From positions 1,674,001 to 1,738,000 of the forward strand of contig NC_088711.1 of NCBI RefSeq assembly GCF_963576615.1: a DNA stretch of 64,000 bases. Reading direction: 5' to 3'. The DNA comes from Watersipora subatra. Lineage: Eukaryota > Bryozoa > Gymnolaemata > Cheilostomatida > Watersiporidae. The position numbers and the translations under genes are program-made. Below the pieces are notes generated by a model. The model worked only from the letters and a program-made list of their open reading frames with translations, was not told the DNA's origin and did not search any database. Below are positions 2,437 to 63,039 of this stretch, piece after piece. Positions within the stretch are counted from its first letter, which is position 1. Each line of letters begins with the position of its first letter.

Positions 2437-2705
2437 ATGTTAGTATATCGTTGATGTTAGTAGTCTCTCTACACTGTAGTACTTTGTAGGTGTTAGTATA
2501 TCGTTGATGTTAGTAGTCTCTCTACACTGAAGTACTTTGTAGGTGTTAGTATATCGTTGGTGTTAGTAGTCTCTACACTGTACTACTTTGTAGGTGTTAG
2601 TGTTAGTATATCGTTGATGTTAGTAGTCTCTCTACACTGTAGTACTTTGTAGGTGTTAGTATATCGTTGGTGTTAGTAGTCTCTCTACACTGTAGTACTT
2701 TGTAG
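2437..2705. repeat. 53-bp minisatellite, about five copies
   Basis: A direct repeat with unit containing gttagtatatcgttgatg, then agtagtctctctacactg, then tagtactttgtaggt (about 53 bp) runs for five copies with a few substitutions, one two-base deletion (ctctctac to ctctac near 2570) and a small gttagt duplication near 2594-2605. It ends about 50 bp before the first coding exon of the ARM-TIR-SAM gene, so it lies in its promoter, 5' UTR or a 5' intron. Confidence 0.9.
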
Positions 2706-2756
2706 ACCAAGTTTTGATAATGACCATTTTATGGCCATTTCAGAAAGCATTAAACA

Positions 2757-5333
2757 ATGGCATCAAAGAAAGAAAACTTCTTTAGGGCGTTCAGCAACAA
2801 AAAGCCAGAAACTCTGCCTCCAATTGAATTGAATGTGGAAAAGAACATGACACAGATTCCAGTTGGCCCTTCTGATTACATTCAAGAGGCGGAAAAGTGT
2901 TCATCTTCGGTTGAACAGCTGAAGTCTGGAGAATTTTTAGAATTATCTGCCAATAACTCGTTAACTCCCCCTGCACCACCGCAAGCACTGCCACCAGAGG
3001 GTAACAAACCTGGGCTCTCGCTCGCACTTACCATGCAAGCATCGATCCATAATTCTGTGCCACCAGCCCCATCTCCACCTGTACTACCGCCTTCTGTACC
3101 GCTTTCACCAGGAACTAACTTTTTGAAAAGTTTGAAAAGAGTCAAACCTGGCAATCCAGATATTTCAACAAGTCAAGCTCGATTATCTGCCGAAGAGGAC
3201 AAAGCTCTAATGATACCAAAGCCTCCTCCTATGCCAAGAAATGCATCAAGCAAACCTGTAATGGAGACTGCTCAGCGGGACACCTCTTTACCGCCGCTAG
3301 CTGTGAGACTGACTGAGCAGTACACCTGGAGCTGGAAACTCACAGATGATTCTTTGGAAAGATGCAAGGATGAGGTGGCATTTGCTGTTAAAGAGCTACA
3401 AAATGTCAAGCCAATCATTATAACTCAGTCCGCCAAACTCTCACCACTGTTCATGTGAGTGCAGTGTCTATCAGAAGTGTCAACTAGTTACTGAGAGTGT
3501 AAAGCCAGTCAGTTCTCAATAGTTTCATAAGAATATAAGAGTCTAAAGGGAAGTTTAAATAGTCTGACATGAGAGTAGAGTCTGTCAAATGATTTGGAAA
3601 TGTTTAGCAAGTTCCTATTAAACTTAAGTATATCATGGTAAATGCTGTCTTTGTTATATTCGATTGATAGTTGATTTTCTCTTATGTTTATTCACTCTTT
3701 TTTTCAGTCTCGTCAGTCAGGCAACAACAAAGAAACACGCTTGCTCTGAATCTAGTCGACTTGAGATTGTAAGGTTGCTGCTCGAGAAGGATTGGGTTCG
3801 CTTCCTGACTGACTACTTTGCTCTTTTGTTTGAAGTTAAAGACTGGAGCATTAAATACGTCGGAGTTGCTATTGAGAATCTGTTAAAAGGCTTGGGAGCA
3901 TTGCGATATCCAATAATGCATATGCAATCTAAAATAGCTGAAGAAATATTCGATCAGTACTACGAAACAGTATTCCATCACGCTTCACATGCAGTTATTC
4001 TAGCTCTATCTAAAGGAGCTACTGTAGCACCAGGTTTCCATCTGGTCAGGTCATTGTTAGGCACCCTGCAAGACTTCACCTTGGTTCCCAGTGTACGTGA
4101 CACTAAAATGACAAAAGAACAAGTAGAAAGCTTGAAGGTTCTCATGACCGACTATACAGAACAACTTATAGCCCCGTATGACAAGTCTACCTGCTACAGA
4201 GCCTTGAACTTCTTAGAAGAGGATGAAAGCTCTTTGGTGAGACTGCCTTTGCACAGTTTGGTGCGCAAAGGCGCAGGAAAGAGCCCTGATGAGCACGCGG
4301 ATGACATCGAGTATGTGCGAGAGAGACTTACCTCAGTAACTGTTGAGACCCATTTGCGTCTTCCTTGGAGATACCAAGCCGAGTTCAAGTATGCAAATTG
4401 CTTCTATTTCCACGAGCATTGTTAACGTGAGACATGCTGGTTTTTCTTAATTTTATCGGTTATGTGTTTTGAGCTATGTGTAACCTATTTTCTTTATTTT
4501 TAGCTTTTTGATGGCAGCAATAGAACCTGATGGTACGTCTGCTGGACCAAAACGTGACATAGACAGATACCATCGCTTGCTAATCGGTAATGGCAAATGG
4601 CACAAGCTTATAACAGATCTTCATCTTGCGGCACTCGTTAAGGTAGTTGAGAAAGGGGAAGATCATCCAGTGGTGAATTGTGTTCTCACAAATGTACTTT
4701 ATGCATTCAGCTGTGTCATCAATGGAACTGACGTCTGCAGAGATCGTACATTGCAACAGCAAACTTTTCAGCATTTCTTTGAATACATATTCGAGCGCCT
4801 AAACGAGTCACGCAATTTGGACGGTGTCGTCGGAATGATAAAGATATCAATGATTACTATTCTACACAACTTCTCTTACTTCTATGAGCCATGCATACCG
4901 ATCATGCGAGAACGAGGTACGATTTCTTTGGCACGAACTCTTCGTCTGCAGGCTCAAGACTCGGGTACTAGTACGGATTGTTTGCTTATTATAGCATTTC
5001 TGATGAATGAAGCTGATAGCAAAAAGTTGATGAAAATAGCGGATGATGAGCTAAGCTATCTGATCAGTGAACTAGAAAAGTCTATGCTCCGCGCCGGAGC
5101 ATCTGATTACCACCCGGAGGAGATAATCGATGGCCTCAACAGAATCGCTGTCAGTGACATTAACAAGCTCAAGCTGATAGAGTGTGGGGTTCTCAAGCTG
5201 CTGAGCAAGTCACTCAACCCAGTTAAATCACACACCACCGTACACAGAGCCGCTGCAGCCAAAGCCATATGGAATCTGGCTTTCTCTGAAGAAAGCCGTG
5301 AGGAGATCAAAGCTCAGAAAGGGCTTATCTCAG
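2757..5333 (+). CDS. Exons 1-3: N-terminal disordered region and ARM repeats
   Basis: Exon 1 (2757-3454) encodes a low-complexity start with proline runs such as PPAPPQALPPEG and ends at a GTGAGT donor after the codons for LSPLF. Exon 2 (3708-4388, acceptor ctttttttcag) and exon 3 (4504-5333, donor CAG/GTATGAG) encode leucine-rich helices of the armadillo/HEAT kind: RLLLEKDWVRFLTDYF, HLAALVKVVEKGEDHP and AAAAKAIWNLAFSEESREE, the last being the classic ARM third-helix pattern. Exon 4 (6373-6489) adds another repeat with the matching LAVSGALWQLEGKEK. The junctions split codons after AT (exon 1) and AA (exon 2), restoring Ile and Asn. ARM arrays form a solenoid that binds partners or, in SARM1, holds the TIR inactive; whether that applies here is inference. 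Confidence 0.85.
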
Positions 5334-8300
5334 GTATGAGGCTTCATGCTGATGGTCTTTTTCTTGGGCTGTTGATAGAACCTTCCCAAATATATTTCAC
5401 CAAAAATGGCATTTGGGCAAAAGGTAAAAACCAATATTGTGAGAAATTTAGTGGAAGTTGTATAGTAGTCAGCTCTGATATATCTCCATATGTCAAACTA
5501 TCATTCGACGACACCAGTATTCTGCTATGATTATGTTGTACATTCAATCTATGGCATGAAAACTTTATTTCATGTAATTAAATCTAGCCTTAAAACAAAT
5601 TTATCTAGTTAATCTATTACAAAAATAAATAAAAAAGTAAATTATATGTAAAAATTGCTTAGTCATTAATAATTTTTGTTTCATATTAGATATTTTTTAA
5701 TTTAATATTGAATGATCATGTCTAGCCTTTTCACTTGAGCCATATATATTTCACTCAAGCCAGGCTTTCCTCCCCTCGCATCGCTGTCACTTTTCCCTCA
5801 TGATAACTACAAGGAAGTATTGTAACATTTGACAGAATTAACCTAACAAGTTTTGCTCATGTTTCTCTACAAGTTCTCACTTTAATTTTAAGAAAAGCTT
5901 CACAATTTTTCTTCCACTGGTGCAACCAACCAAGCCAGTCTTTTTGAGATCAGTAATTTCAAAACTATAAAATTCAACATGAAGCACTTGTTGCTATTAC
6001 TTGAATCCTGTAGAGCCAAGTTATGTGAAAGAGAACTTTATAACTGATTTACAATACTGCAGTTTCTTGAAAAACTTCGTACATCGTATGATAGATATCA
6101 CTCCGGTCGTGGTCAAATATCTGCTCAAACTTTCAAGCGAAATTCTATGTTGAAAAATTCATATTCTCAAGTGATGGTGAGTTGACTGTAGACTCAATGG
6201 AAGGCTTCTGAGAATGACTACACATGAGTGCATATTACCTGTTTGTTGTAGATAATAACTAGTTCGTTTTATACAGAGTACGTATATCTCTGTTCTGTAT
6301 ATCTCTATGCTCTGTATGTCTCTATGGCCAGCGAATATATCGTCTTTCGCACTTGTCCGCTCCTGTTGGCAGCTCTCAAGTCATTTAAAGACTCGGAGAA
6401 CAAAGAGTTGCGGCTGGCCGTTTCAGGGGCACTTTGGCAACTGGAAGGTAAAGAGAAGCATTTAGAAGAAATCTCTGTAGATGTCAAAGGTAAGTTAGCT
6501 TTAACCATTTTCACGCTTTCTGTTTGTATTGCTGAACAAGGAAAAAAATGATAGTTTTCTATGTGTGGCTTCACTAAAGGCTGTCACTACAAATGTGTTG
6601 ATAAGCTAATGTTACCATGTCAGTGATTACTAATGGTACTATTACTATGCCTATCATAGCTGTGATAGTGTTACCATACTAATTTCACGTCTGAAAGTTA
6701 GCTACTATTGCCTGGATGTACTCAGAGCTATACAACAAGAATTAAATAGTTTTTTGCTGCGATTCGTTGATTTCCTGTAACGGTGTTAGGACAAGCTTGT
6801 GATCACCACCTACAAAAACATCCCAAATTTGCCAGCCCACCTAAGGGCAACCCAAGATTACATTTGACTCTAGGACAAGGAAACCTGACTAGCTGGAGCA
6901 TCATGAGATCTACATCCGCTGTTTCTCTCTATGGCTACAGAGACATCATTTCAAACACTTTATATATAGTCATATTGTGCTCATAAAGGTTATATGGCTT
7001 ACTAGCAGGCCTCAGTTGTTGTTGTTGTACACTGTAGAAGCTGAGCAGAAGCACATCATGTTAAGCTACAACCACCAGGCAAAGACTGAGGTGAATAAGA
7101 TGAAAGACCTGCTCAAACAGCGAGGATTCAAAGTCTGGATCGATCATGAACAGATCACAGCTGGTAAAGACAGCTGGCAGCAGCCGCTGAGTCTCCGTAT
7201 TGTTTTATCCTTAGAGCCTTGAGAAGCAAACACCCTTACTACAATAGCCTTATTATTGCAGGTGGTTCAACACTGGAAGCGATGAGCACGGCTATCGAGG
7301 ACTCCTGTCTGGTTCTCATATTCTTCAGCGAGCCATACAAGAACAGCATCAACTGCCGAGCTGGTGAGTGGCATATAGGATCCCTGATTTATAACTCTAT
7401 CAATTACTCTCAATCAGACCTCTTGCCTCTGTCCAAGTAGTTCTTCCGTTTTATACAAATACTACTGAATGCCCGGCGTTGCATGGGCATTACAAAAGGT
7501 TTTTTCACAGAAAATTTATTTTAACCAACGTGCACATTTACCATTCTAACTTTTAAATGAAGGTGTTTGTTTATTTCTGTGTACTGTGTACTATAAGTTT
7601 AATTAGGTTTATGCTACATGTATATACATATCATACATATATTTTTAGCTTTTTGGGGAAGTCTGGGCACATCTTTTTTTCTAGTCGACTGGCAGTCCCC
7701 TGTGTCATTAAAGATTGGCATGTGTAATAAATATGTCCACAATTATCCCAGGTATGGAAACGTGGCCACATGACATAGTGGCTAGTGAGCCAGCCTGTCT
7801 GCAAAACTGACTTTTCCAAGTTCCATTCTAGTGCGAAGTGGTTTTTTCGTTCCTATAACTTTATTGCTAATACTGGACATACGACAAACAGACCAACAAA
7901 CGCTTAGATTTATGTATATATGGATAAATTGTAGCATCATAAGGCTTTACGTAATTGAATGCTGCACTACTCCGAATATACGTTACCTTGTTATTGTTAG
8001 CTTATTCTTGTGATGAAAATAGTTTGAGGACTTGTGGTGGGTGGGGTGGTGGAGAGGTAGGTGGGAGGAGATTAGAGCTACTTAAGAATTCTTTAACAGT
8101 GGACAAAATAGTTAGCTAGTATTTCACTGAGCTTTAATAACTCTTTCAGCTGCCTCAATAATAGGAAATATTATAAATCTCTCATACTCTATATATTGTG
8201 ATTCGTTTAGAATTTTGACAATTTGTTTGAATGTTTGCCTTCTATTACGACTTGTCTATTCATTTTAATGCTATTAGCTACCCATAAACCTGCAATCACC

Positions 8301-11300
8301 ATAAGCCGTCAACTAAGGTGCAAGGGTTAGTGAAACTGTTGTTTTACATTTAATATGTCTTTTATAACAGTGTGTTGTTGATGCTTTGTATATTGAAAAA
8401 ACTATCTACAGCGGACTATTTTAAGGTAGCATTCAATCTTAACTGATTGTCAACGATTCCATTTGACTTATTACCATATTTACACAACAATTACAACAAC
8501 CAGCAAGCACAACAACCAGCATGACTGAAACAACAGTGAATTGACAAACTTGATGACTTGTAAAGTTTTGAAACCAGAAGATAGATTTAAAACCAATGCA
8601 GCAAGCATCAGCTTTTTCCAGTAACAGGTTATACAATATGTATGCATGTCTACATAGGTTCATAGGATAAGATGAGAAAACTAATAAATGTACATATTAA
8701 TTTCTTTTAATACCAGTTCATGTTTGAACAGCTGTCATGACTTGCGACGCACAAATATCTGCAACTTTTGTGCAATGCTGGGTCAGGCCCTGGTAGTCAG
8801 CTAGCACGCTCGTACCTTTCATTAACACCAGAGATTGTTACCTGTACTTGTTGAACTACCCTCTTGTACTTTCACTACCCTCTTCGAACGCTCATTATTA
8901 AGTCACTGATTTGCATCAACTCGTCATGAAGTATGAGGTCATGTAGCTTTATTAGAAGGAAGGAAAGAGCGCTGAAAAGTGGTGCTGCAGGTATTGTATG
9001 TAGTACTAGTAGTACTAGTAGTAAACAGCAATTTTATACAAAACAATCAATACATCCTACTCTCATAACATAACTTTTTAATTCTCCAATCTGTTACATT
9101 TATACTGCAATAATAAGAGTACTTCCATGCCATCTCCTATTCACTACTCGAAGTCCTATTCACTACTTTCATGAGGGAACTTGTTTGACCTTGTCAAGAC
9201 CTACAGTATATCATACTGGCCAGCTGTCTCCACACCTTAACACTTTTATCTCTTTTAAAATGTGCATATATATTAGTTTCCAATTGCTTTTGGGACTTTA
9301 TCACATTAGCAGTGATATCAGGGGCTTAGTAATTCTATGTAGGTTTAGCACTCAGGACACGGGCCTGTACTCTGATTTTTGTGTTTTTCGCACGCTGCTC
9401 GGTCTCTACTATCTATCAGTTTTTTTGCTGTATATGTGGAGCGTTGGCGCGAACAGACGCAGTACAATTTGATATCTTGTTGAATGTGAACTGGAGTTAA
9501 TCAGAACTCATTGTAGGAGTTATATGCTCTTTTGACTTTTTCCTGTAGCAGGAACTTTCCTTTTTTTGAGTCAACATGAGGGGGAAACAAAAGCACCAAA
9601 CTACCAGCAATGTTAAATTATGTGAATTATTTGCATAAAAAATAACATCCTTTCTAAAAGAACGCAACAAGTCATCAGTGTCGATACCATATGAGACACC
9701 AGAGGGTTTTTCGTTATCAATCCACCCCTGTGAGTTAGCAAAACATGTACATCTAAGTAGTCTCATGAGCTAGCCTAGGCTCCATGAACACATAGAATTT
9801 CATTCCCAAACTGTAAATAAAGCAGATATTTCAAACCATACCAAACTTGCTGGCTGTAAGATGTACTCAAAGTAAAATATTAAAGCACCGTATCTTAATG
9901 TGAACCTGGCCGAGGCATGTAGTTGAAACAAACCTTCCACCTGAAACTTGACCAGTTGAAACAAACCTTCCACCTGAAACTTGACCAGTTGAAACAAACC
10001 TTCCACCTGAAACTTGACCAGTTGAAACAAACCAACCACCAGAGACTTGACTAGTTGAAACAAACCGTCCATCTGAGACTTGACCAGTTGAAACAAACCT
10101 TCCATCTGAGACTTGACCAGTTGAAACAAACCAACCACCAGAGACTTGACCAGTTGAAACAAACCGTCCATCTGAGACTTAACCAGTTGAAACAAACCTT
10201 CCACCTGAGATTTGACCAGTTGAAACAAACCAACCACCTAAGACTTGACCAGTTGAAACAAACCAACCACCAGAGACTTGACTAGTTGAAACAAAGCAAT
10301 GACCTGCGACTTGACCAGTTGAAACAAACCAACCACCTGAGACTTGACCAGTTGAAACAAACCTTCCACCTGAGACTTGACCAGTTGAAACAAACCTTCC
10401 ACCTGAGACTTGACCAGTTGAAACAAACCTTCCACCTGAGATTTGACCAGTTGAAACAAACCAACCACCAGAGATTTGACCAGTTGAAACAAACCAACCA
10501 CCAGAGACTTGACTAGTTGAAACAAAGCAATGACCTGCGACTTGACCAGTTGAAACAAAGGTGAAGCAGTGAAAGGTCTGACCCTTAGTTATAAACATGT
10601 TTTAAGGTCACAATAATTTGAGGGATTATCTTGAAGAAGAATTGATACTTCACCAAAACAGCTCAGCATTAAGACTTGGCATGTGAACCAGCAGCTGACT
10701 ACTTTATACCAGGCATCGTATTAATCACAACGCGTGTTATTAGCAGCTCAGGCTAAAACTATTATTCTTGTGGCTATAAATAGGAGACTGCAAGCTGAGT
10801 TGTTGAACTGCTTTGCTGGTCACCTGTCCGACCACATTAGATTTGCGGCAGTTGACAAGAAGTGACAGAAAGTATATTTTGCAGAGGCTGAGTATGTATT
10901 TGAAAGGCGCAAACCATTCATCCCAGTTCAAGTGCAGGCTGGATACACGCCCGAAGGATGGCTCGGCATTTTATTTGGCTCAAAGTTTCGGTATACCTTG
11001 TGTAAACCTGACAAATATAAGACGGAAGTAGAGGGGCTTCTGGGTAAAGTGAAAGAACTCGCCAGTAGTCAAGCCCAACCTGTAGCAGCCAAGGATGTAC
11101 CAGGTAGCATTACAAACATCATCTATCATTATTTACTACTATTGGAGATGCCTTAGATGGAGATGGATTGAAGATGGTAAATTCTCTAGCTGGTCAGAAA
11201 AACAAAACCTAATACTTGTCTTCAACCTTGTATAAAGAGTTTCTTCATTAGCTCAGATAGTGTAGAATATTAACCAGCACATAGAAATAGTGTCTGTCGT

Positions 11301-13138
11301 ACAGGGCAGTTGTCTAGGAATGTGAATCACAAACACAATTTTGACAATAAAGTATAACAACTTCATACTCAATAATTCTGAGGGCTAAATATTATGCAGG
11401 CCAGTATCCAAGAGTTTGATTCATGGCTTCTCTAACTAGTTACAATTGAAGGAAATAGGATTTGAGGTATGAATTTTAGTGCGGTTACAACTTTTTTTAT
11501 ATTATGATATTATAAAGTGCATTTAAATTTGCCTCTTTTAGGTCATCTTATTCGTAGTTGTTCATTAAGTGAGAACAACTATGCATGTTCACTGCATCGT
11601 TCACATAATTATATATAAATACATAGAGTAAGAACTGAGCCATTTTTATTTTTGTAACATGGTCAAAAAATAGAAATGTTTGCATGTTTCGCGGATATAA
11701 TATTAATAAAGCTTGGTGGAAACGACATAGCCTTAATGTAGCAGTAATAAACTCAATGGACTTTTAAAATATTGCGGTAGACTCATGGCATGGCTCAGTG
11801 TAACATTCTTAGATTCCTAATAAGAGTTTGATAGCAAAGCACACACAGTTATATCTCTAGTAGGATTTGTTTGCTCAACTCACGTCAGTTTTAATTTAAA
11901 CAATGTTCTTGGAACAAAGTGGTAATGATATATTACCATAAATGTTTCCGCCAACCTAATCGATTGCTAATTTACGTGTAATATTTCTTTCTTGCCGTTA
12001 GGGTTCACTACTGCTGGTACGCACACATGACAAACACTTGAAAATTTTTCAAGAAGAGATCACTTATAATTTGCTTGTAGTTATCTGCTCCATAACTACT
12101 TTTACAAATTTAAAAACTTGGCTAGTGACCCACTTCCTTTGATATCCTATTAAGTATACGATTTTTGGCATATTAGTCGATTTTTACTTTATTGATCAAA
12201 ATTGCACTAAGTACATTACTAATAATCATATAATATACACATACGCACATACCAGTATGCATATGTGTGTGCACGAGTACGTGGTGTGTCGCGTGTGGTA
12301 TGCGTGTCTAATGAACAAAGTCACAAGTCATACCAATACAGGTCTATTAGTGTGTGTGGACTTGCTCTTGAGATTATGTTTTCCTAATGGTTGTCTTCAC
12401 ATCTGGTATATATGTACTTGCATAGATGGAATCATACCAGCTTCTACAACCCTTCCTGCTACTACATCTCCTCAACTTCCCTCTCCTAGTCTTCCACCTT
12501 TGGAATGTGAATCATGGAGTTGGCAGCAGACCAGTGAATGGCTTGATGATAACAAACTAGGGCCAATCAAGGACAGGTTGTGCTACTGTACTACTAGTAC
12601 TTCAGCTATGTTATGTGCGCCTGTCTTACAGTTGTGTATAGACTAGTATTATGCGTGTTTGTCCAATGTTTCATAAGTCCTATCAGTTCTATGCGAATAG
12701 GGATATATTCTTCGGCTTTAAGCTATGCACATGTACTCATCATCAATGTTTTATCAATTCGTGAACGACGCATGTACGGATTAACAATTTTCCTGCTTCA
12801 GCTTTGTCCATATATTATAATCTCCATGTTTGAGGTTTTCGCTGGTACATGTGGCATTTGATGACATTTTTTTACATTTGATGTATTTTTCTAAATGGCT
12901 TTAGGAGATGCTTGGGAATCAGGCCAAGGTCTGGTATGAATGTATTAAAAAAATGAGACAGCATTATGAACATTCATTGTTTTACAGTCTGGAAGATGCT
13001 GATGGAACGATGTTAGCCGAGTTAGCCATGCTCTCGTACCAACACAAGGATGTGTTCTATACATTGATATGCAGCAAAACTGGAGCAGACCTAGGCTGCA
13101 TACTACGGTTCAGCAAAGCACTGAAAAAATTAACATAA
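2757..13138 (+). CDS. ARM-TIR-SAM protein, nine-exon gene (complete model)
   Basis: My exon model is 2757-3454, 3708-4388, 4504-5333, 6373-6489, 7038-7163, 7262-7363, 10885-11103, 12426-12576 and 12988-13138; every intron is GT..AG, all phases fit, and the total is 3075 nt, or 1024 residues plus TAA. The ATG is fixed by an in-frame TAA at 2751-2753; a ccatttcag acceptor ends at 2743, suggesting a spliced 5' UTR. Order: disordered Pro/Ser-rich region (1-200), armadillo-type helical repeats (about 235-770), TIR (about 779-905), Pro/Thr linker, SAM (about 955-1022). TIR domains act in innate signalling or as NAD hydrolases, and SAM and ARM usually mediate oligomerisation and regulation; a self-assembling NAD-cleaving sensor is therefore a reasonable inference, not shown here. 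It is not a SARM1 orthologue, whose SAM pair precedes the TIR. Exon 4 and exon 9 borders were chosen by phase and domain continuity and are the least certain. Confidence 0.85.
7038..11103 (+). CDS. Exons 5-7: TIR domain
   Basis: Exons 7038-7163, 7262-7363 and 10885-11103, all starting in phase 1, join to a contiguous TIR domain of about 125 residues. Strand A is KHIMLSYNH, the BB-loop region is FKVWIDHEQITAGGSTLE (assembled across the first junction), then CLVLIFFSEPYKNS, then NCRAEAEYVF across the second junction and FIPVQVQAGYTPEGWLG. The Glu of NCRAE (residue 852 in my model, its codon split by the 3.5-kb intron) sits where catalytic TIRs such as SARM1 carry the NADase glutamate, so activity is possible. 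The Gly-Trp-Leu-Gly segment is typical of lophotrochozoan TIR proteins as I know them. The exon 6 to 7 intron holds a SINE-like repeat and the 33-bp minisatellite. Confidence 0.88.
7462..7925 (+). repeat. tRNA-derived SINE-like element in intron 6 of the TIR gene
   Basis: The copy begins with tgaatgcccggcgttgcatgg and contains a tRNA-like promoter segment near 7753-7830 (box A-like gacatagtggctagtgagcc, box B-like aagttccattctag). It then has the shared 3' module cgttcctataactttattgc, gacaaacagacc and agatttatgtatata. The same order recurs at 26432, 26878 and, on the minus strand, 29928 and 32665, which defines it as a dispersed family. Confidence 0.65.
7926..9900. other. Intron 6 sequence without genes
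   Basis: Part of the 3.5-kb intron between TIR exons 6 and 7. I see G-rich and AT-rich stretches (ggtgggtggggtggtggagagg near 8036-8060) and a short agtactagt triplication near 9002-9022, but no coding signal on either strand. Confidence 0.5.
9918..10557. repeat. 33-bp minisatellite, about 19 copies, in intron 6 of the TIR gene
   Basis: The unit is built on agttgaaacaaaccttccac followed by ctgagacttgacc. Variants replace ccttccac by ccaaccac, ccgtccat or gcaatgac. The order of variants is itself repeated: the block ending in gcaatgacctgcgacttgacc occurs twice, at about 10295-10315 and 10525-10545, so the array grew partly by duplicating multi-unit blocks of about 231 bp (7 units). Because 33 is divisible by 3, several frames are open across it on both strands; these are artefacts. 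Confidence 0.93.
12426..13138 (+). CDS. Exons 8-9: Pro/Thr linker and SAM domain
   Basis: Exon 8 (12426-12576) starts after tgcatag, continues the phase from exon 7 and encodes a linker rich in Pro, Ser and Thr followed by ESWSWQQTSEWLDDNKLG, the first SAM helices. Joining donor GGACAG/GTTGTG to the acceptor ttgttttacag at 12987 gives KDSLEDADGTMLAELAML, matching the usual SAM core of the form F..n.iDG..Ll.L, then DVFYTLI and ILRFSKALKKL before TAA at 13136-13138. An alternative start at the upstream acceptor (12904) would add about 27 residues but breaks the reading frame from exon 8, so I reject it. The GTTGTG donor is weaker than the others. Confidence 0.78.
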
Positions 13139-13540
13139 GGCCAAAGTACATTCATCAACGATGGCTGACGAGGGCAGTACATACACATATGCACACTATC
13201 ATCCTAACGACGTTGCCGGAGATATAACGATGCTGCGAGATTGCGCATCATATGTAAGAATTACAATACAATATTTTTTTCTAACAATTCAACCTCAAGA
13301 CATGCATGCAATGAGGAAGCAGAAGTACAATCAACAAATTTCAGAGCAAGTTTATTATTTATTGAATACTTTACACCCATATACGCTTTCCAACCCATCA
13401 TGGGTAATTCTATGTAATTCTTTACAAATTACACCTTTTTATATATTTAAACGCTGTTTTGTATAAAATTGTAATTTTTTTGTAGAGCTGCTCTATTTTG
13501 CTATTTGATTTTTAAACTAAAAATACAATAAACAAAATAC
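13139..13540 (+). other. Probable 3' UTR of the ARM-TIR-SAM gene
   Basis: The sequence after the stop is AT-rich. A canonical AATAAA hexamer lies at 13527-13532, followed within 50 bp by T- and GT-containing sequence (ccattgtttgcattg), a reasonable polyadenylation site. An ORF from 13161 (about 100 codons) shows no recognisable domain and reads as UTR. Confidence 0.5.
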
Positions 13541-14716
13541 AAAAAACCAATGCAACCATTGTTTGCATTGCCATACAAGCTAATCGTTGTAACAACACGA
13601 GCAAACAAAGAGACATGGATAGTAAGCCTAGACTGTATGGCTGTGGGCTAGAAACACATCTCTTATACCTCAGGTGTCATGAGTAGAGATTAAACTGAGC
13701 ACATAAAGGTAATGCTAACCAACTCAGATGTCATGAGTAGAGATTAAACTGAGCATATAAAGGTAATTCTAACCAAGAGAAAAGAAGCTTACTGATCTAG
13801 CAAGTAGAGAAATATTGTGTGTGTAGAAGAGACTATCTAAATACATGAGTAAAGACTCAGACTAGAAATATTACTCCAAACGTTCTGTGAAGACGTGTAA
13901 AAAAGTTGGTGAGTGAATGGTGAGCAAGCATTCACACTGGGTACAGCAGCTGGTAGTAGCATTTAAAGGCATCTAGCCCACGGATCAGGATGATGGCTAA
14001 ATAGTAACACCGACAGAATGCCTAATGCCTACAAACATACAAAAACACAGCATACAGGTGCACCTTCATATATAACATAGGTAAAGGGAAAAAGTATTTA
14101 GCCGACGCATTGTGCGAGTGTCGTGTCAAAACAAACATTTAGGTCTACATCGATGTAAAATAAAGCTGACACTTCTGTGATTGGCTGAAATAGCTGAGTC
14201 TGACAAACATGATCTCGATTACTTTTTATTAATTTCTATCGCTAGCTAATTTCATGAAGGTTTTTTCTTGAACGACAATGACAACAGAGCGTGATGCAAA
14301 CAATTATTGCTACAAGGACAAAGATGCTCTCATTTGTAACAGCTATGTGAAGGCTACTAGAATAAATTGGAACTGTTTATAAAACCTTTCAGATATTTTT
14401 TGGTAATTAAACTTGTAGAAACCCAGTTTTTCTAGAGTTCGATTTGTGCCATGAACCCAATGTATATTCATACATAGCTCTTTTCACCGAAAAAGAAAGT
14501 TTTTTTCTTGAACAAAAATATGGCTACCAAAATACATGTAGATAAACAAATGTTATTGCTATTATAAGTTGATTATCAATATCAGATAATAAATACACTG
14601 ACGATTCTTCAATAATGGCAATGAAAAATCTAGCACAAACGTCATGGCCTTCACACAATTGAGAACATCATTGCCTTTACGTATCTGAAGCTAATTATTG
14701 TTGTTAATACAAAGCG
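13541..14716. other. Gene-free stretch with a short direct duplication
   Basis: No gene seen. A roughly 54-bp direct duplication (ctcaggtgtcatgagtagag and gattaaactgagca then ataaaggtaat) lies at 13671-13716 and 13725-13769. The rest is AT-rich without recognisable elements. Confidence 0.45.
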
Positions 14717-57600: not shown

Positions 57601-60600
57601 ATCCCGTCTGAACCGGATGATTTACCAATCTTATTATAGCCCACAGCATTCTTATCACCGCTGAAAATAATAACTCTCAGTAGTGTTATTGATCAGTAAA
57701 AATTAATCAAAGTCCATAGATCTAAAATTAGGTCTATGGACAATACATTACTACTACTAGTAAAAATTTCGTAGTTGTAATGCGTCTGATATGACTGTTC
57801 GGTCCCTAGAAGAAATGGCGATAAAAAATAGTTTTTGTAAAACGAAACTTCGCTCAAGATGAGTTGTAAATATATTTTTTATTGGCTCAACTCATGCAAA
57901 CAAGTGTTTCCTTCCGTTTAAGTACAGTTACGATAGGCAAATTAATTAAATAATCAGAAACATTTGGTACGAAGCCTATCAAGGCCGTATTATGCGGCTC
58001 TTGACCATACGCAAACGCCGAGTCGTACTACGCTGCTCATGGCAAAAGAGTTAAGATGTTCAGGAGAGAAATGTCCGTATTCAGTGTCCATATCCAGTGT
58101 CCGCATCCAGTGTCTGTATCCAGTGTCCGTATCCAGTGTCCGTATCCAGTGTCCGTATCCAGCTATATCCAGTGCTCTCCAAGCGAGTTCGCATGACTTT
58201 GTACTGTATTGCTTGACCATAGACCTTGTGTACAGCAGTCTACCTTCGCTTGTGTCCTTGTGTAGTTTATACTGCTGAGCCTGATCTTTTATTGCAGCTG
58301 TGTCCAGACTTGCTGAGACCTGTAGAGCTTAGTACCTACACAGAACACATTAGTCAGATCCAGCACATGAAGGTACGATGTCAGCTCGCTATATCTCGTC
58401 AGTTTTGAATAAGCTGTTGCTGCATTGTTCTGTTCAATTTAGTATTGAACGCCTCCATTTTTGGTTTGTAGAACGTTTTTGATTGGCTACTGACTTCCGA
58501 TGCTCCTTCGATGCAGAAGTACGAGGTATGAGTGATTCGTTATTCGGCATTTACCTCCTCCCTCAAAGTTCAATTTATTAGTTTAGTTATTTTGTGTATG
58601 AGCTAGTTTTATCATAGTTCGCTGTAGTAGGCTCATTAGAACAGCTCGTGATGTGTGTCGCTGATAGCATTGGCAGACGCGCTGACTTTCACCGCTAATT
58701 CTTTCTTTCACCACACTCTTTTATGCTTGGCAGCTGCTCGCTGGAAAGATCAAGGCATCACAAAGAGTTGCAGGCCTATTTTGTGAGGTAAACATCTTAC
58801 TAACAACTATTCAATTTTGATTCAAATCTACAATCACATTTTGGCTAGTTTTCTATTTCTTACAAATATGCGTTTTTTATGATATGTTAGCTCATTTTTG
58901 CTGCTTCTACATGTACACTTGCTCTTTCTTTTGTTGCAGTTCTGCAGAAAAGCGTCATTCAATGTCATAGACATAAAGAGTCATCAAGGTCACCTGTCAT
59001 CTGACCGACACGTCAATGTAGTCAAGGTAAGTCCTGTTCTACCTGGAATCAGAATAAATGACTTGTTCTATTGGTTGCAAGTTGTCATGTCCATATCAGG
59101 CTATATTCTTTTATAGAGTTTGAAATCTAGCTACTCGCAGCAGTTGGAAAATCTTAGAAAAACTACTAATGCCTCTACTCATGCCAAGATCACACCATCC
59201 TTATCACAGGAAGAGAAAAGGCTTCGTCATATGCAGAATTTAGACAAAGACAACACTTTGTCAACGTAGGCAGAACTTTTTTCATTTTGTTTATCAACGA
59301 TGTATTATAGTCTCCAGACTCTAAGTCATGCTTTGTTCTTGCAGTTGATCAATCAACTTGTGAAACGGTGCATCATTTTTAGGAATGTGTCTTTGTATCA
59401 TATTTGTCTAGATTAGACTCATACCTCGCACTGTATTAGGATCAAGCATAATATTCACATTTTATGCAAGTTTTTATGAGACAGAATAATCTTGTAAAAC
59501 ACTAGTTAATCACAATGTAGTTTGTTACCTTGTATTCTGTCAAATAATGGGCTTTGTATTACTTTGTTACCTTGTATTCTGTCAAATAATGGGCTTTGCG
59601 GTATAAACATTCAGTCTCTTTTGGGATTTTGCTGCGCATCTTTAAACCATTAAACTGGACAGTGGCTAAATTAATAAATATTGCTAAATATGTGTTTATC
59701 ATCAGGATTAAAAGCTACATGTAGACTAAAACATTCATGGCTACTAGGCAGATGTGTCCGGTGTAGGGAACAATTCTCAGAACTCTTTAGATAGTGCTGG
59801 CTTTTATTTGCGTGCCTTTAATAGTCTTTCATTGTATTTATGAAACCTATAGATGTTTCATATTGAATTTCAGTTCTCCAGGCACGTCTTCTCTGAAAAC
59901 TAAGGATGACAAAAGAAAGCAAGAAGTCCATAAGAGTAACGAGAAAATCAATTTGTCTGACTGCAAAGCAATTTCATCACAGTCCCACCAAGGCGCAGGG
60001 CGCTCTCCAAGCTGGTCACCAATTCGCAATTCTGCATCACCTTTGGCGGACAAGACCAGTGATGTCGAGGTAGTTGCAGTTCATAAACTGACTCCAAGTC
60101 ATTCAGATCATTTATCAGGAAAATCCACAACTTTTAGACAGAATCCTGTGGGACATAGCTCTTATTCAGCTCAGAAATCTACCTCTCTTAGGCTACAGTC
60201 TCGGTCTCCTCGTCGCCGATCCCACTCTCCTCGTCGCCGATCCCGGTCTCCTCATCGCCGATCCCGGTCTCCTCATCGCCGATCCCGGTCTCCTCGTCGC
60301 CGGTCTCCTCGTCGCCGATCCCGTTCTCCTCGTCGCCGTTCCCGTTCCCCTCGTCGCCGATCCCGTTCCCCTCGTCGCCGATCCCGGTCCCCTCGTCGCC
60401 GATCCCGTTCCCCTCGTCTCCAGTCTTATTCTCTTCATCCCCAGTCTCACTCTCCCCATCTCAGCTCTCCTCATCCCCGATCCCACTCACCTTTTGGTCG
60501 GGTCTCTTCTCCTCTTTCTTCGTCCCGCTCTCATTTACCCCGTTCTCGCTCTCCTTTTTCTCGGTCCCATTCTCATCTGCAATCTCATCCTCCTCATTTA

Positions 60601-63039
60601 TTGTCATACTCGTCTCATCTTAGCACTGATTCTCTCCTTCAGAATGCCTTTTCTCTGTATTCTCATTCTTCACAACATCCGGCCAGTTCTCCTCCGCATC
60701 AGCAATCTACTAGTGCCCTTCATATTCAATCTCATTCTCAACGATCCCATTCTCCTCAACTGCTGCCGGCTCATTCTCCTCAACCTCAATTTTCTCCTCA
60801 ACCTCAATTTTCTCCTCATCTACAATCTCATTCACCAAAACACCAATATCAGTCGAGTAACACGGATCATCGTTTCTGTCATTCACCGCCATCTTCGCGA
60901 TGTAGCTCTAGATCAAAGCAGGGAGATACATGGTCTTCCGACAGGTCTCAAATAGCACTTAAAGACAAGAGAAGAGACTACCAAAGAGCGTCAAGATCAC
61001 CTATCCGGCGAAGGACTTTGCGATCATCTCGTTCTAGATCTCCAACATACTCGCGTCGTAATTCTTCAAGGTCTCATGATCGGTCAATAAGGAGTAGGTC
61101 AAGGGATAGATTTTCAAAAAAAAGACATGTGCCTTCACCACCATCTGCTCAGAGGGTAGGTATAGTAAGGAGAAGGTTAAGACCAAGACCTCTCTCTCCT
61201 TGGAGTATAAATAGTCTGACATTTCTTGTTGAAAAGAAGTGGACTGACTATTACGAGAAGTATTATAGCGCTGGCACAAGAAACGATACTCAGTGTCTCA
61301 CAGTGCAGCAAGAATATCTTCAAGCGTACAAGGGCTTCTTTATGGAGGATCCTCAGTTCGACCTAATTTACTCAAAGTTGTTCAAGCCAGAAACATTGCG
61401 GGCACTGCTCTCTGAGAGAATAGACCGTGGCTCTCCTGGTCCATGCCACAGAACGCTGTCTCATAGTAACTCTCCTCTCAAAGGATTTGACATTGAGTCA
61501 GATAAACTAGTTGGCAAAGAAAGGAGGGAAGACAGATGGAACCGAAGGCTAGATGAGGAACCACGTGTTCAATCCCGAGCCCACCATACTAGTTCAGCAG
61601 ACAAAGACCGATATCCTTACAAAAACGATGTAAGCTTGTCTGAGTCTCGACAGCCTAGAGGAGAGACCAATTCTTTTATCGCTCCTCTCAGTTCTCCTGT
61701 TTCCTCACATATGCCAGAGGTTGCCTCCCTTCAGTCATTCGACAAGCTCAAAAGCCTCATTAGAGAGAAACTCAAAATTCCAACGGGAGAGAAGGCAAAG
61801 CCTACAGCATCTCTATCCAGCTCTATACAAGTACCTGAATTGGTCAAACAAGCACTGCATCAAATCAACACCACCAAAGTTAGAGATGAACCCGAGGGGC
61901 CTCAAGCACCGTCATTCTCCTCTGGCAATTTGGTATGCTCATTTTATACATACTGATATCGCAAAACAGCTCGCTTTGTTGTATTCTTGTCTGACTAAGC
62001 ATTGGTATGCCACGAGCCATCCAAAACAAGCAAACTGATTTTTGCTATCTTTCAGCGATTCCACAATCCTTTCCTCGGCTTTGTTCACAATGTGTTGAGT
62101 GGGATACTGAAGATGACTGGCCTCCAGGATGATGTGGTATGTTGCACTGGTTTGGTAGAATATGACTCCTGCACTTTGCGCTCAGTTGTTCAGCGCTTTC
62201 TTACTATTTTCATTGCATCGTCTTCCTATGTGTTTTAATGGCACCCTATAAGCGGGTTAAAAACATACAAAGAGTGCTTTATACGCAGGCCCATCTTCCT
62301 TTTCCTTATACTCATTTTCAGGATGCTTTTTATATTGTGAACTCATTAAGTTTTTGGCTATGATTAAATAACTCATGGTTTTGCCACTAAACTTGCCACG
62401 GTTTTATATCCATGCAGTTTTCTTGAAATTAGTTACTGTTGAGTCAGATCTGCAACTGTAACGTGTTATCATTGCACATATTGGAGGATGTAACTGATTG
62501 AGCGGTGAACATGCTACATAAACAGTCTACATGACGGCTATTTGTTTGTGCAATAGGTGGTAGTACCAAAGTACTCGTGTATCATTCTTGAGCAGTTCAT
62601 TGCGAAATGTTTATGTCCATCTTAATAACATTTAGTTTTGCTACAATCAGGTTGGCGCACACTATTATAGTTTCTGTTATATTCAATTACCTTAGCCTTC
62701 ACCTCTTTATTTGCATGAGTCTATGTAGATGATATGAACAGGCTTAGATGTTGCATGTTCTATTGCCATTACTCTTGTGTCCTCCACTCAATCTAGGACA
62801 CAGGTAACGCCCCAGCAGGTGCTCGCTCACAGCTCTATATCGAACAGCGGCGAATGCATGAGAGCATGGTGACACCAGAAGGCCATCTTCTCATTCGCAT
62901 GGCTCGCATGACCCTTGCTAATGTGCAGAGGCTCGATTCCAAGTTCGGGGCATCTCATGTGGATGTTGTCTCTATTCTCAAAAACCTTGACCGGGATGTT
63001 CTCCAGCTTATAGCCGATACTCCTATGCTCAAGCAATAA
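54244..63039 (+). CDS. Matrin-type zinc-finger, Arg/Ser-rich nuclear protein (at least eight or nine exons)
   Basis: Exons: 54244-54690 (tentative), 57156-57230, 58298-58372, 58734-58787, 58940-59026, 59117-59265, 59874-61932, 62056-62136, 62797-63039. All borders are GT..AG; junctions are phase 0 except one (59265/59874), and the sum is about 1089 residues plus TAA. Two C2H2 fingers of the matrin/U1 type (H-x5-H spacing) come first, then a charged linker, a long Ser/Arg tract, and a C-terminal region with no family I know. Matrin fingers plus RS dipeptides are typical of nuclear RNA-processing or transcription cofactors (ZNF638, ZNF318 and CIZ1 are broad analogues); a nuclear RNA-linked role is inferred. 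The start codon is not certain and upstream exons may be missing. Introns hold a TTAA element and a 13-bp array. Confidence 0.8.
54720..56060. other. Intronic stretch of the zinc-finger/SR gene
   Basis: AT-rich with no exon or repeat that I can support. Confidence 0.4.
56069..56976. mobile_element. TTAA-target inverted-repeat element, copy B
   Basis: Same ends as copy A (AGGTTGACTTGCAACAAAAT and inverted partner) and collinear interior (catttcgggttttaccgaaa; tagatgctcgctacttgaca; agacaatagacatggtttta). Flanks are TTGA at 56065-56068 and TTAA at 56977-56980, so one side of the duplication has mutated. Length 908 bp, about 30 bp more than copy A. It lies in an intron of the zinc-finger/SR gene. 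Confidence 0.85.
57156..59026 (+). CDS. Exons for two matrin-type zinc fingers
   Basis: Exon 57156-57230 (VTASHLLIAEKVAGLTIRNQ then LFSCQ) joins 58298-58372 to form FSCQLCPDLLRP with TEHISQIQHMK: CxxC, a spacer, then His-x5-His. Exon 58734-58787 (KIKASQRVAGLFCE) joins 58940-59026 to form LFCEFCRKASFN with SHQGHLSSDRHVNVVK: again CxxC and His-x5-His. The two finger units share the same exon layout, with an intron inside the CxxC region, and similar lead-ins (KVAGL, RVAGL), so one probably arose by duplication of the other. Confidence 0.85.
58073..58162. repeat. 13-bp tandem repeat, about seven copies
   Basis: Unit gtccgtatccagt with single-base variants (gtccatatccagt, gtccgcatccagt, gtctgtatccagt). 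It lies in the intron between the two half-exons of the first zinc finger. Confidence 0.9.
59515..59605. repeat. 46-bp direct duplication
   Basis: Two adjacent copies of ttgttaccttgtattctgtc then aaataatgggctttg (first 59522-59557, second 59567-59598), separated by tattac. In the intron before the large SR exon. Confidence 0.85.
59874..61932 (+). CDS. Large Arg/Ser-rich exon
   Basis: Acceptor tattgaatttcag, donor TTG/GTATGC; about 686 residues. The first 100 are charged and polar. Then, at 60187-60420, comes a dense array of the SPRRRSR type (18-bp period, tctcctcgtcgccgatcc), grading into SPHLQSHS-type Ser/His/Pro repeats to about 60850 and mixed RS sequence to 61150. Next is a compact, non-repetitive part: SINSLTFLVEKKWTDYYEKY, then AYKGFFMEDPQFDLIYSKLF, likely a folded helical domain unknown to me. 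Codons before 59874 in the same frame are intronic, although the frame happens to be open from 59794. Confidence 0.88.
62056..63039 (+). CDS. C-terminal exons of the zinc-finger/SR gene
   Basis: Exon 62056-62136 (ctatctttcag/..GTG/GTATGTTG) encodes RFHNPFLGFVHNVLSGILK and MTGLQDDV; exon 62797-63039 encodes a helical, charged end with LYIEQRRMHESMVTPEGHLL and SHVDVVSILKNLDRDVLQLI, stopping at TAA 63037-63039. Both are phase 0. They are rich in amphipathic helices and could be a protein-interaction domain; no family recognised. Confidence 0.8.

Follow-up and report, generated by a model that had tools for sequence, protein, structure and literature searches.

Does a single gene of the bryozoan Watersipora subatra join an ARM solenoid, a TIR domain and a C-terminal SAM domain in one protein, and if so, is that protein a rearranged SARM1 or a member of another family? 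The question is raised by a locus at 2757-13138 (+) of the stretch analysed here, 64,000 nucleotides of contig NC_088711.1 (positions 1,674,001 to 1,738,000; hereafter the window). SARM1 is the animal TIR protein with a well-studied NADase. We rebuilt the exons of an earlier gene model from the window sequence and found the gene to be real and intact. Its anatomy as an ARM-TIR-SAM gene is close to certain, and comparison with its relatives identifies it as a new, lineage-modified member of an old and broad animal ARM-TIR-SAM family. The parts of the gene are listed below, with P numbers for gathered homologues; P0004 is the Bugula neritina protein EB796_002545.

2757..3454, + strand: exon 1 (aa 1-233), proline-rich N-terminus and solenoid start; donor CAT/GTGAGT; aa 108-233 have 38 of 117 aligned residues identical to P0004
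3708..4388, + strand: exon 2, helical solenoid; 61 of 218 aligned residues identical to P0004
4504..5333, + strand: exon 3, ARM-type solenoid; 117 of 276 identical to P0004
6373..6489, + strand: exon 4, last ARM repeat; 27 of 40 residues aligned to P0004, with 14 identities; against P0001, 40 of 40 residues aligned and 11 identical
7038..7163, + strand: exon 5, TIR beta-A to BB loop (E813, T816-A817 insertion)
7262..7363, + strand: exon 6, TIR BB loop to NCRA; 24 of 34 aligned residues identical to P0001
G at 7363 and AG at 10885-10886, + strand: codon of E852, split by intron 6 (3.5 kb), as given by the exon phases
10885..11103, + strand: exon 7, TIR end (GWLG motif, last helix); 74 of 74 residues aligned to P0001, 23 identical
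12426..12576, + strand: exon 8, linker and first SAM helix, placed by family alignment and tail profile
12988..13138, + strand: exon 9, remaining SAM and stop TAA at 13136-13138, placed by tail profile score

All eight introns of this nine-exon gene are GT..AG and consistent in phase. The coding sequence of 3075 nt encodes 1024 aa plus the stop (1025 codons) with no internal stop, and an in-frame stop at 2751-2753 precedes the ATG at 2757. The nine exons and 1025 codons of the original prediction were thus rebuilt exactly, and homologues touch every exon. As regards the sequence in and around the gene, 53-base tandem repeats (5.1 copies, 2430-2705) lie just upstream of the start codon, a 33-base tandem repeat (19.4 copies, 90% matches, 9921-10559) lies within the intron that splits the E852 codon, and two 54-base tandem copies (94% matches) follow the gene at 13669-13776.

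We gathered homologues in two steps. Residues 640-1024 as query found seven proteins, including P0004; one of those matches, P0002, then found 192 proteins at E<=0.001, of which the best 120, P0002 included, were listed. The window protein matches 126 of the 126 gathered homologues at E<=1e-3, a rate to be read as support and not as frequency, since the set was assembled by homology. Among the best 45 of these 126 matches, 44 span from residue 509-620 to residue 1014-1024, and P0004 spans 108-763. Exons 1-4 align to P0004 (33% over 692 columns), and exons 3-9, exon 3 in part, align to the seven other homologues examined (P0001, P0011, P0012, P0035, P0032, P0040 and P0059).

Splice sites were graded by a simple consensus count, donors out of 9. 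Four of the eight donors reached at least 7/9, three others scored 6, and the donor of exon 8 scored 5; four of eight acceptors fell within the best tenth of window AGs, and those of exons 7 and 8 were unremarkable. Where a site is weak by this count, homology is its proof. The border at 6373 is spanned by alignments to P0004 and to the seven other homologues. The borders at 12576 and 12988 are backed by the protein's tail, to which a profile built from 123 other family tails gave 51.9 bits (the underlying alignment having been made with the window in it), where the best of 2000 shuffled window tails scored 7.0 and the Bugula proteins 50.7 and 48.3. The three borders for which the original prediction wanted transcript confirmation are therefore backed by homologue alignments and the tail profile.

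The annotation of Bugula neritina suggests another division of the locus, into two neighbouring genes for an ARM protein and a TIR-SAM protein, as in EB796_002545 and EB796_002544. The Bugula models are indeed separate, the match of EB796_002545 (window residues 108-763, 33%) ends near the exon 4/5 border, and a second TIR-SAM model, EB796_002542, exists. However, exons 4 and 5 of the window join in phase over a 548-base intron with a 9/9 donor, all seven other homologues examined cross this junction within one protein, and both Bugula TIR-SAM models begin at a Met inside the first TIR strand (M783 in the window), as a truncated model would. On these grounds the two-gene division is disfavoured, and we consider it very improbable. 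With the TIR-SAM end alone as query, six proteins were found, the best being EB796_002544 (57%), followed by EB796_002542 (53%). Both halves of the window protein thus have their best match in Bugula, in keeping with a bryozoan source. Given the neighbouring locus tags, the Met start inside the TIR strand and the end of the EB796_002545 match near exon 4/5, EB796_002545 and EB796_002544 are probably one gene cut in two by annotation. The second TIR-SAM copy close by is a candidate tandem duplication, if the contig is shared as its equal length for all three models (42,558 bases) suggests. Where the annotation of Bugula is probably broken, the window offers the bryozoan gene in complete form.

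The domain content and order ARM, TIR, SAM was borne out, the three parts resting on different kinds of evidence. Pfam places TIR_2 at 1.6e-19 (aa 782-875) and TIR at 1.5e-5, and the TIR_2 domain carries the CRxEAEY and GWLG motifs. The window sequence taken by itself has several weak points: Arm reached only 0.17, ARM-type models being weak on the protein alone; no SAM model was among the six families at E<=1 for the whole protein; the tail alone gave SAM_1 at 0.2; residues 1-107 found no homology support among the homologues compared; and the exon-8 donor CAG/GTTGTG is weak, with 40% of window GTs equalling its consensus score. Since Pfam is weak on the single sequence, the ARM and SAM calls rest on the family. 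The HMM search proposed in the original prediction accordingly recovered the TIR directly and the two flanking domains by way of the relatives.

We applied Pfam to 56 hand-chosen family members at E<=0.01 and found TIR_2 in 56, Arm in 38, SAM_1 in 14, SAM_3 in 13 and SAM_2 in 12, so that most members lie below the cut-off for any one SAM model. A profile of 18 tails, window included, was compared with a PDB set and placed the SAM domains of ETV6, liprin-beta-1, SARM1 (8.8e-6) and SHANK on top. It gave 75 sequences at E<=1, most matches falling in the first half of the SAM, and the top E-values belong to chains that carry the ETV6 SAM more than once (each copy worth about 16-19 bits); among the best 60 of the 75, one is not a SAM, the de novo helix bundle 9u78 (0.0027). 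The tail score reported above and this search both support a single SAM after the TIR. The column of W955 holds W in 119 of 123 tails.

In the AlphaFold model of Owenia P0012, disordered linkers connect a solenoid made up of helices throughout (39-367), a TIR (388-512) and a tail that is likewise helical (562-633); pLDDT is mostly >90 in solenoid and tail and 75-97 by block in the TIR, with 58 in the BB-loop block. The model of Bugula P0127 has a TIR and a tail of bundled helices (tail blocks 83-94, BB-loop block 61). The predicted-structure look at the C-terminus was thus favourable for the helical tail in two relatives. In fold searches, an isolated SAM chain was absent among the matches listed, where solenoid or TIR dominates, and the SAM call therefore rests on sequence profiles and predicted helices. 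Whole SARM1 and TIR-1 chains appeared in one of these searches and superposed badly (TM 0.21-0.29).

How widely is this order distributed? The original prediction had proposed a little-described invertebrate protein, and this did not hold: judged from the gathered sequences, ARM-TIR-SAM is not a new order, nor a rare one, and it reaches from corals to lamprey and gar. Carriers among the matches listed include Pocillopora, Nematostella, Oculina, Acropora and Porites; Lingula, Owenia, Capitella, Tubulanus and many molluscs; and Glandiceps, Ptychodera, Saccoglossus, Branchiostoma, Petromyzon and Lepisosteus. The same order, colinear to the last residues, is found in Lingula (LOC106161607), Owenia, Capitella, Lottia and Mytilus, and likewise in Nematostella (LOC5512767), Branchiostoma, Petromyzon (LOC116942174) and Lepisosteus. 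Column counts were made over 124 of the 126 proteins, leaving out P0004, which lacks a TIR, and P0007, a WD40 protein with several TIRs, and since many rows are closely alike, row counts do not equal independent lineages. A post-TIR tail of at least 60 residues is present in 123 of the 124, the exception being P0114. These relatives share with the window the Glu, GSTLEAM and GWLG motifs, whereas the window protein has a longer N-terminus, H where the relatives invariably have W after SYN, and a BB loop longer by two residues. A separate observation concerns P0006, in which ankyrin repeats replace ARM and the TIR is followed, as in the window, by a SAM_2-like tail (0.012, below the Pfam cut-off); judged from this sequence, the TIR-SAM pair may also follow another repeat scaffold.

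Comparable proteins are described in the literature, as far as the available portions of the sources go. The amphioxus TIR-SAM hybrid gene Brafl1_131196, for which a recovered cDNA was published in 2008 (PMC2575513), shares the TIR-SAM pairing by name and is likened to the window gene by description only, an ARM part being unmentioned in the available portion. ARM-TIR is a protein class in oyster (PMC4346834), and Aplysia has 10 TIR proteins with Armadillo-type folds (PMC9334734); both combine an Armadillo-type fold with TIR as in the window, with SAM unmentioned in the portions available. Parts of further papers describe Arm and ankyrin combined with TIR in choanoflagellates (PMC6040629) and TIR2-like TIRs in ctenophores (PMC11797021). 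In the open-licence literature, the literal term ARM-TIR-SAM was found in none of the 21 papers listed out of 23 matching ones, though the family may still be described or assayed elsewhere, and no functional assay of a family member was seen; the term TIR-SAM occurs, among the matches listed, in the amphioxus paper and in PMC10242710 (Arabidopsis).

The most distinctive feature of the window protein, by comparison with the gathered sequences, is the two-residue BB-loop insertion (T816, A817). It adjoins the exon 5/6 junction, corresponds to a gap in 124 of 124 homologues, and is present in Bugula P0127 and P0128 and absent from P0129-P0132; both Bugula neritina TIR-SAM copies (EB796_002544 and EB796_002542, annotated, like EB796_002545, as separate models) share the insertion with the window. 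The Trp after SY-x in the AA loop, a feature of the gathered homologue set and not a published family definition, is present in 124 of 124 homologues; the window has H788 at this position, and P0127 and P0128 have K. The Pro of the tail motif APEFFY, kept in 120 of 123 tails, is replaced, the motif reading HKDVFY in the window and HKDTFY in Bugula.

Such losses could mark a copy that is decaying or diverging fast, with family-invariant residues lost on the bryozoan branch. The loss of the invariant Trp and the change of APEFFY to HKDVFY agree with this, as does the tree, in which the terminal branch of the window (1.13) is the third longest of 57 ingroup tips. On the other side, the nine exons are intact, and two Bugula proteins likewise show the HKD-FY tail, the loss of the Trp and the insertion in the BB loop; decay is in our judgement a very poor explanation. 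The tree, built without the Bugula TIR-SAM proteins, groups the window with P0001, P0003 and P0005 (support 81), possibly by long-branch attraction. With weak support (44-81 along the path to the window) and long branches, only the length of the window branch is taken from it.

Is the protein, then, a SARM1 with its parts reordered, as the original prediction had it? The parts are shared, the tail profile finds the SARM1 SAM, and the BB loop is as long as the SARM1 consensus: set by eye against that printed consensus, E813-Q-I-T-A-G818 and E-(R/K)-L-E-A-G agree at positions 1, 5 and 6 and differ at 2, 3 and 4. The available sections of a TIR survey name residues 1, 2 and 6 of the consensus as important for catalysis (PMC7075850), and the window agrees at 1 and 6 and not at 2. 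This loop length is not special to SARM1, however, since Cat1 aligns to the window there without a gap. A profile of six family TIRs ranked Cat1 (4.5e-8) and RPS4 (6e-4) before SARM1 (0.008), and with the single window protein as query SARM1 was not among the matches at E<=1. SARM1 and C. elegans TIR-1 share ARM, SAM, TIR, the Glu and an acidic BB-loop residue with the window, but their SAMs precede a C-terminal TIR that the survey, in the portion available, places in group 24, and they carry a Trp-Glu pocket pair; in the window the TIR precedes a single tail SAM. The survey gives the ligand-binding pair of SARM1 as W71 and E75 (PMC7075850). We placed the corresponding residues through the RPS4 alignment and these named positions: the pocket Trp falls at N848, four residues before E852, and the W of RPS4 aligns at N848. 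The order of the domains, the single SAM, the class of the TIR and the absence of the pocket Trp all disfavour a SARM1 orthologue with shuffled domains, which is the least credible of the explanations considered here. From these comparisons the window protein is not a reshuffled SARM1. Parts of PMC7688312 and PMC9153377 treat the architecture and activation of SARM1 itself.

What might an ARM-TIR-SAM protein do? NCRA begins at residue 848, so that the Glu of NCRAE is E852, in the catalytic NADase position as originally claimed: its column holds Glu in 123 of 124 homologues and Gln in one, and it aligns with the Glu of Cat1 and RPS4. The acidic BB-loop residue E813 is retained in the family. 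The sequence shows the gene, its domain order, its family and the conserved Glu, and the ARM, TIR and SAM folds are predicted in two relatives. For a protein that is probably cytosolic, we propose the following mechanism. The ARM solenoid would keep the TIR apart, or would sense a partner or a ligand. Once triggered, the TIR would cluster together with the C-terminal SAM, and the clustered TIRs would cleave NAD+ via E852, with E813 in the BB loop. The product, or the loss of NAD, would drive a defence or cell-death response. Such action would be SARM1-like, with the clustering module on the opposite side of the TIR, which would sit directly between the restraining and the clustering parts. Judged from sequence, NAD cleavage is plausible and we infer oligomerisation and cell death; for restraint, clustering and E852-dependent cleavage as a whole, our confidence stops just short of the midpoint.

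The protein might instead be a non-enzymatic scaffold, its TIR binding other TIRs (e.g. Toll-type receptors, MyD88), its SAM and ARM recruiting partners and E852 being structural. In the available sections of the survey, Glu occupies the catalytic position in >70% of all TIRs and in >90% of the TLR1/2/6/10 subgroup, so that E852 is weak evidence for NAD cleavage; the frequency of this Glu, common also in TIRs without reported activity, need not track that activity, and a role beyond catalysis is suggested (PMC7075850). Asn at the SARM1 pocket Trp, and the TIRs of Hydra TRR-2 and MyD88 among the best fold matches, point the same way. Against a scaffold, 123 of 124 homologues retain the Glu, and the acidic residue of the BB loop and the tail domain are kept as well. 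Cat1, like SPARTA, is NAD-cleaving, and the TIR profile puts it first, together with plant RPS4. The fold searches did not separate enzyme TIRs from scaffold TIRs, and a death domain, the feature of MyD88-type adaptors, was not among the six Pfam families at E<=1 for the whole window protein. We regard a scaffold as a substantial possibility, though a doubtful one.

If the NADase mechanism applies, ARM-TIR-SAM proteins could form, apart from SARM1, another animal lineage of TIR NADases that cluster through SAM, extending from corals to lamprey and gar and carrying its clustering module at the C-terminus; the long bryozoan BB loop may alter how the TIR is held or activated. We put this forward tentatively. 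There is also work on oyster TIR-STING. SARM1 was the only metazoan TIR with known NADase activity according to the 2020 survey, in its available sections (PMC7075850), and the ARM-TIR-SAM family may belong in survey group 18. Since this family has been retained through much of animal evolution with the parts of SARM1 differently ordered, it offers a natural test of how restraint, catalysis and clustering need to be arranged.

As to the rest of the window, a tblastn search with the 126 homologues found no paralogue outside 2700-13200 at E<=1e-3, no known RNA was found at gathering level, and Pfam on 7 other open reading frames of the 42 listed gave no match at E<=0.01. A 721-aa open frame rich in Ser-Arg-Pro repeats occupies 59791-61956, likewise with no Pfam match at E<=0.01, and a 315-aa open frame running in from the window edge (3-950) appears, judged by eye, to be a retroelement reverse transcriptase-like piece.
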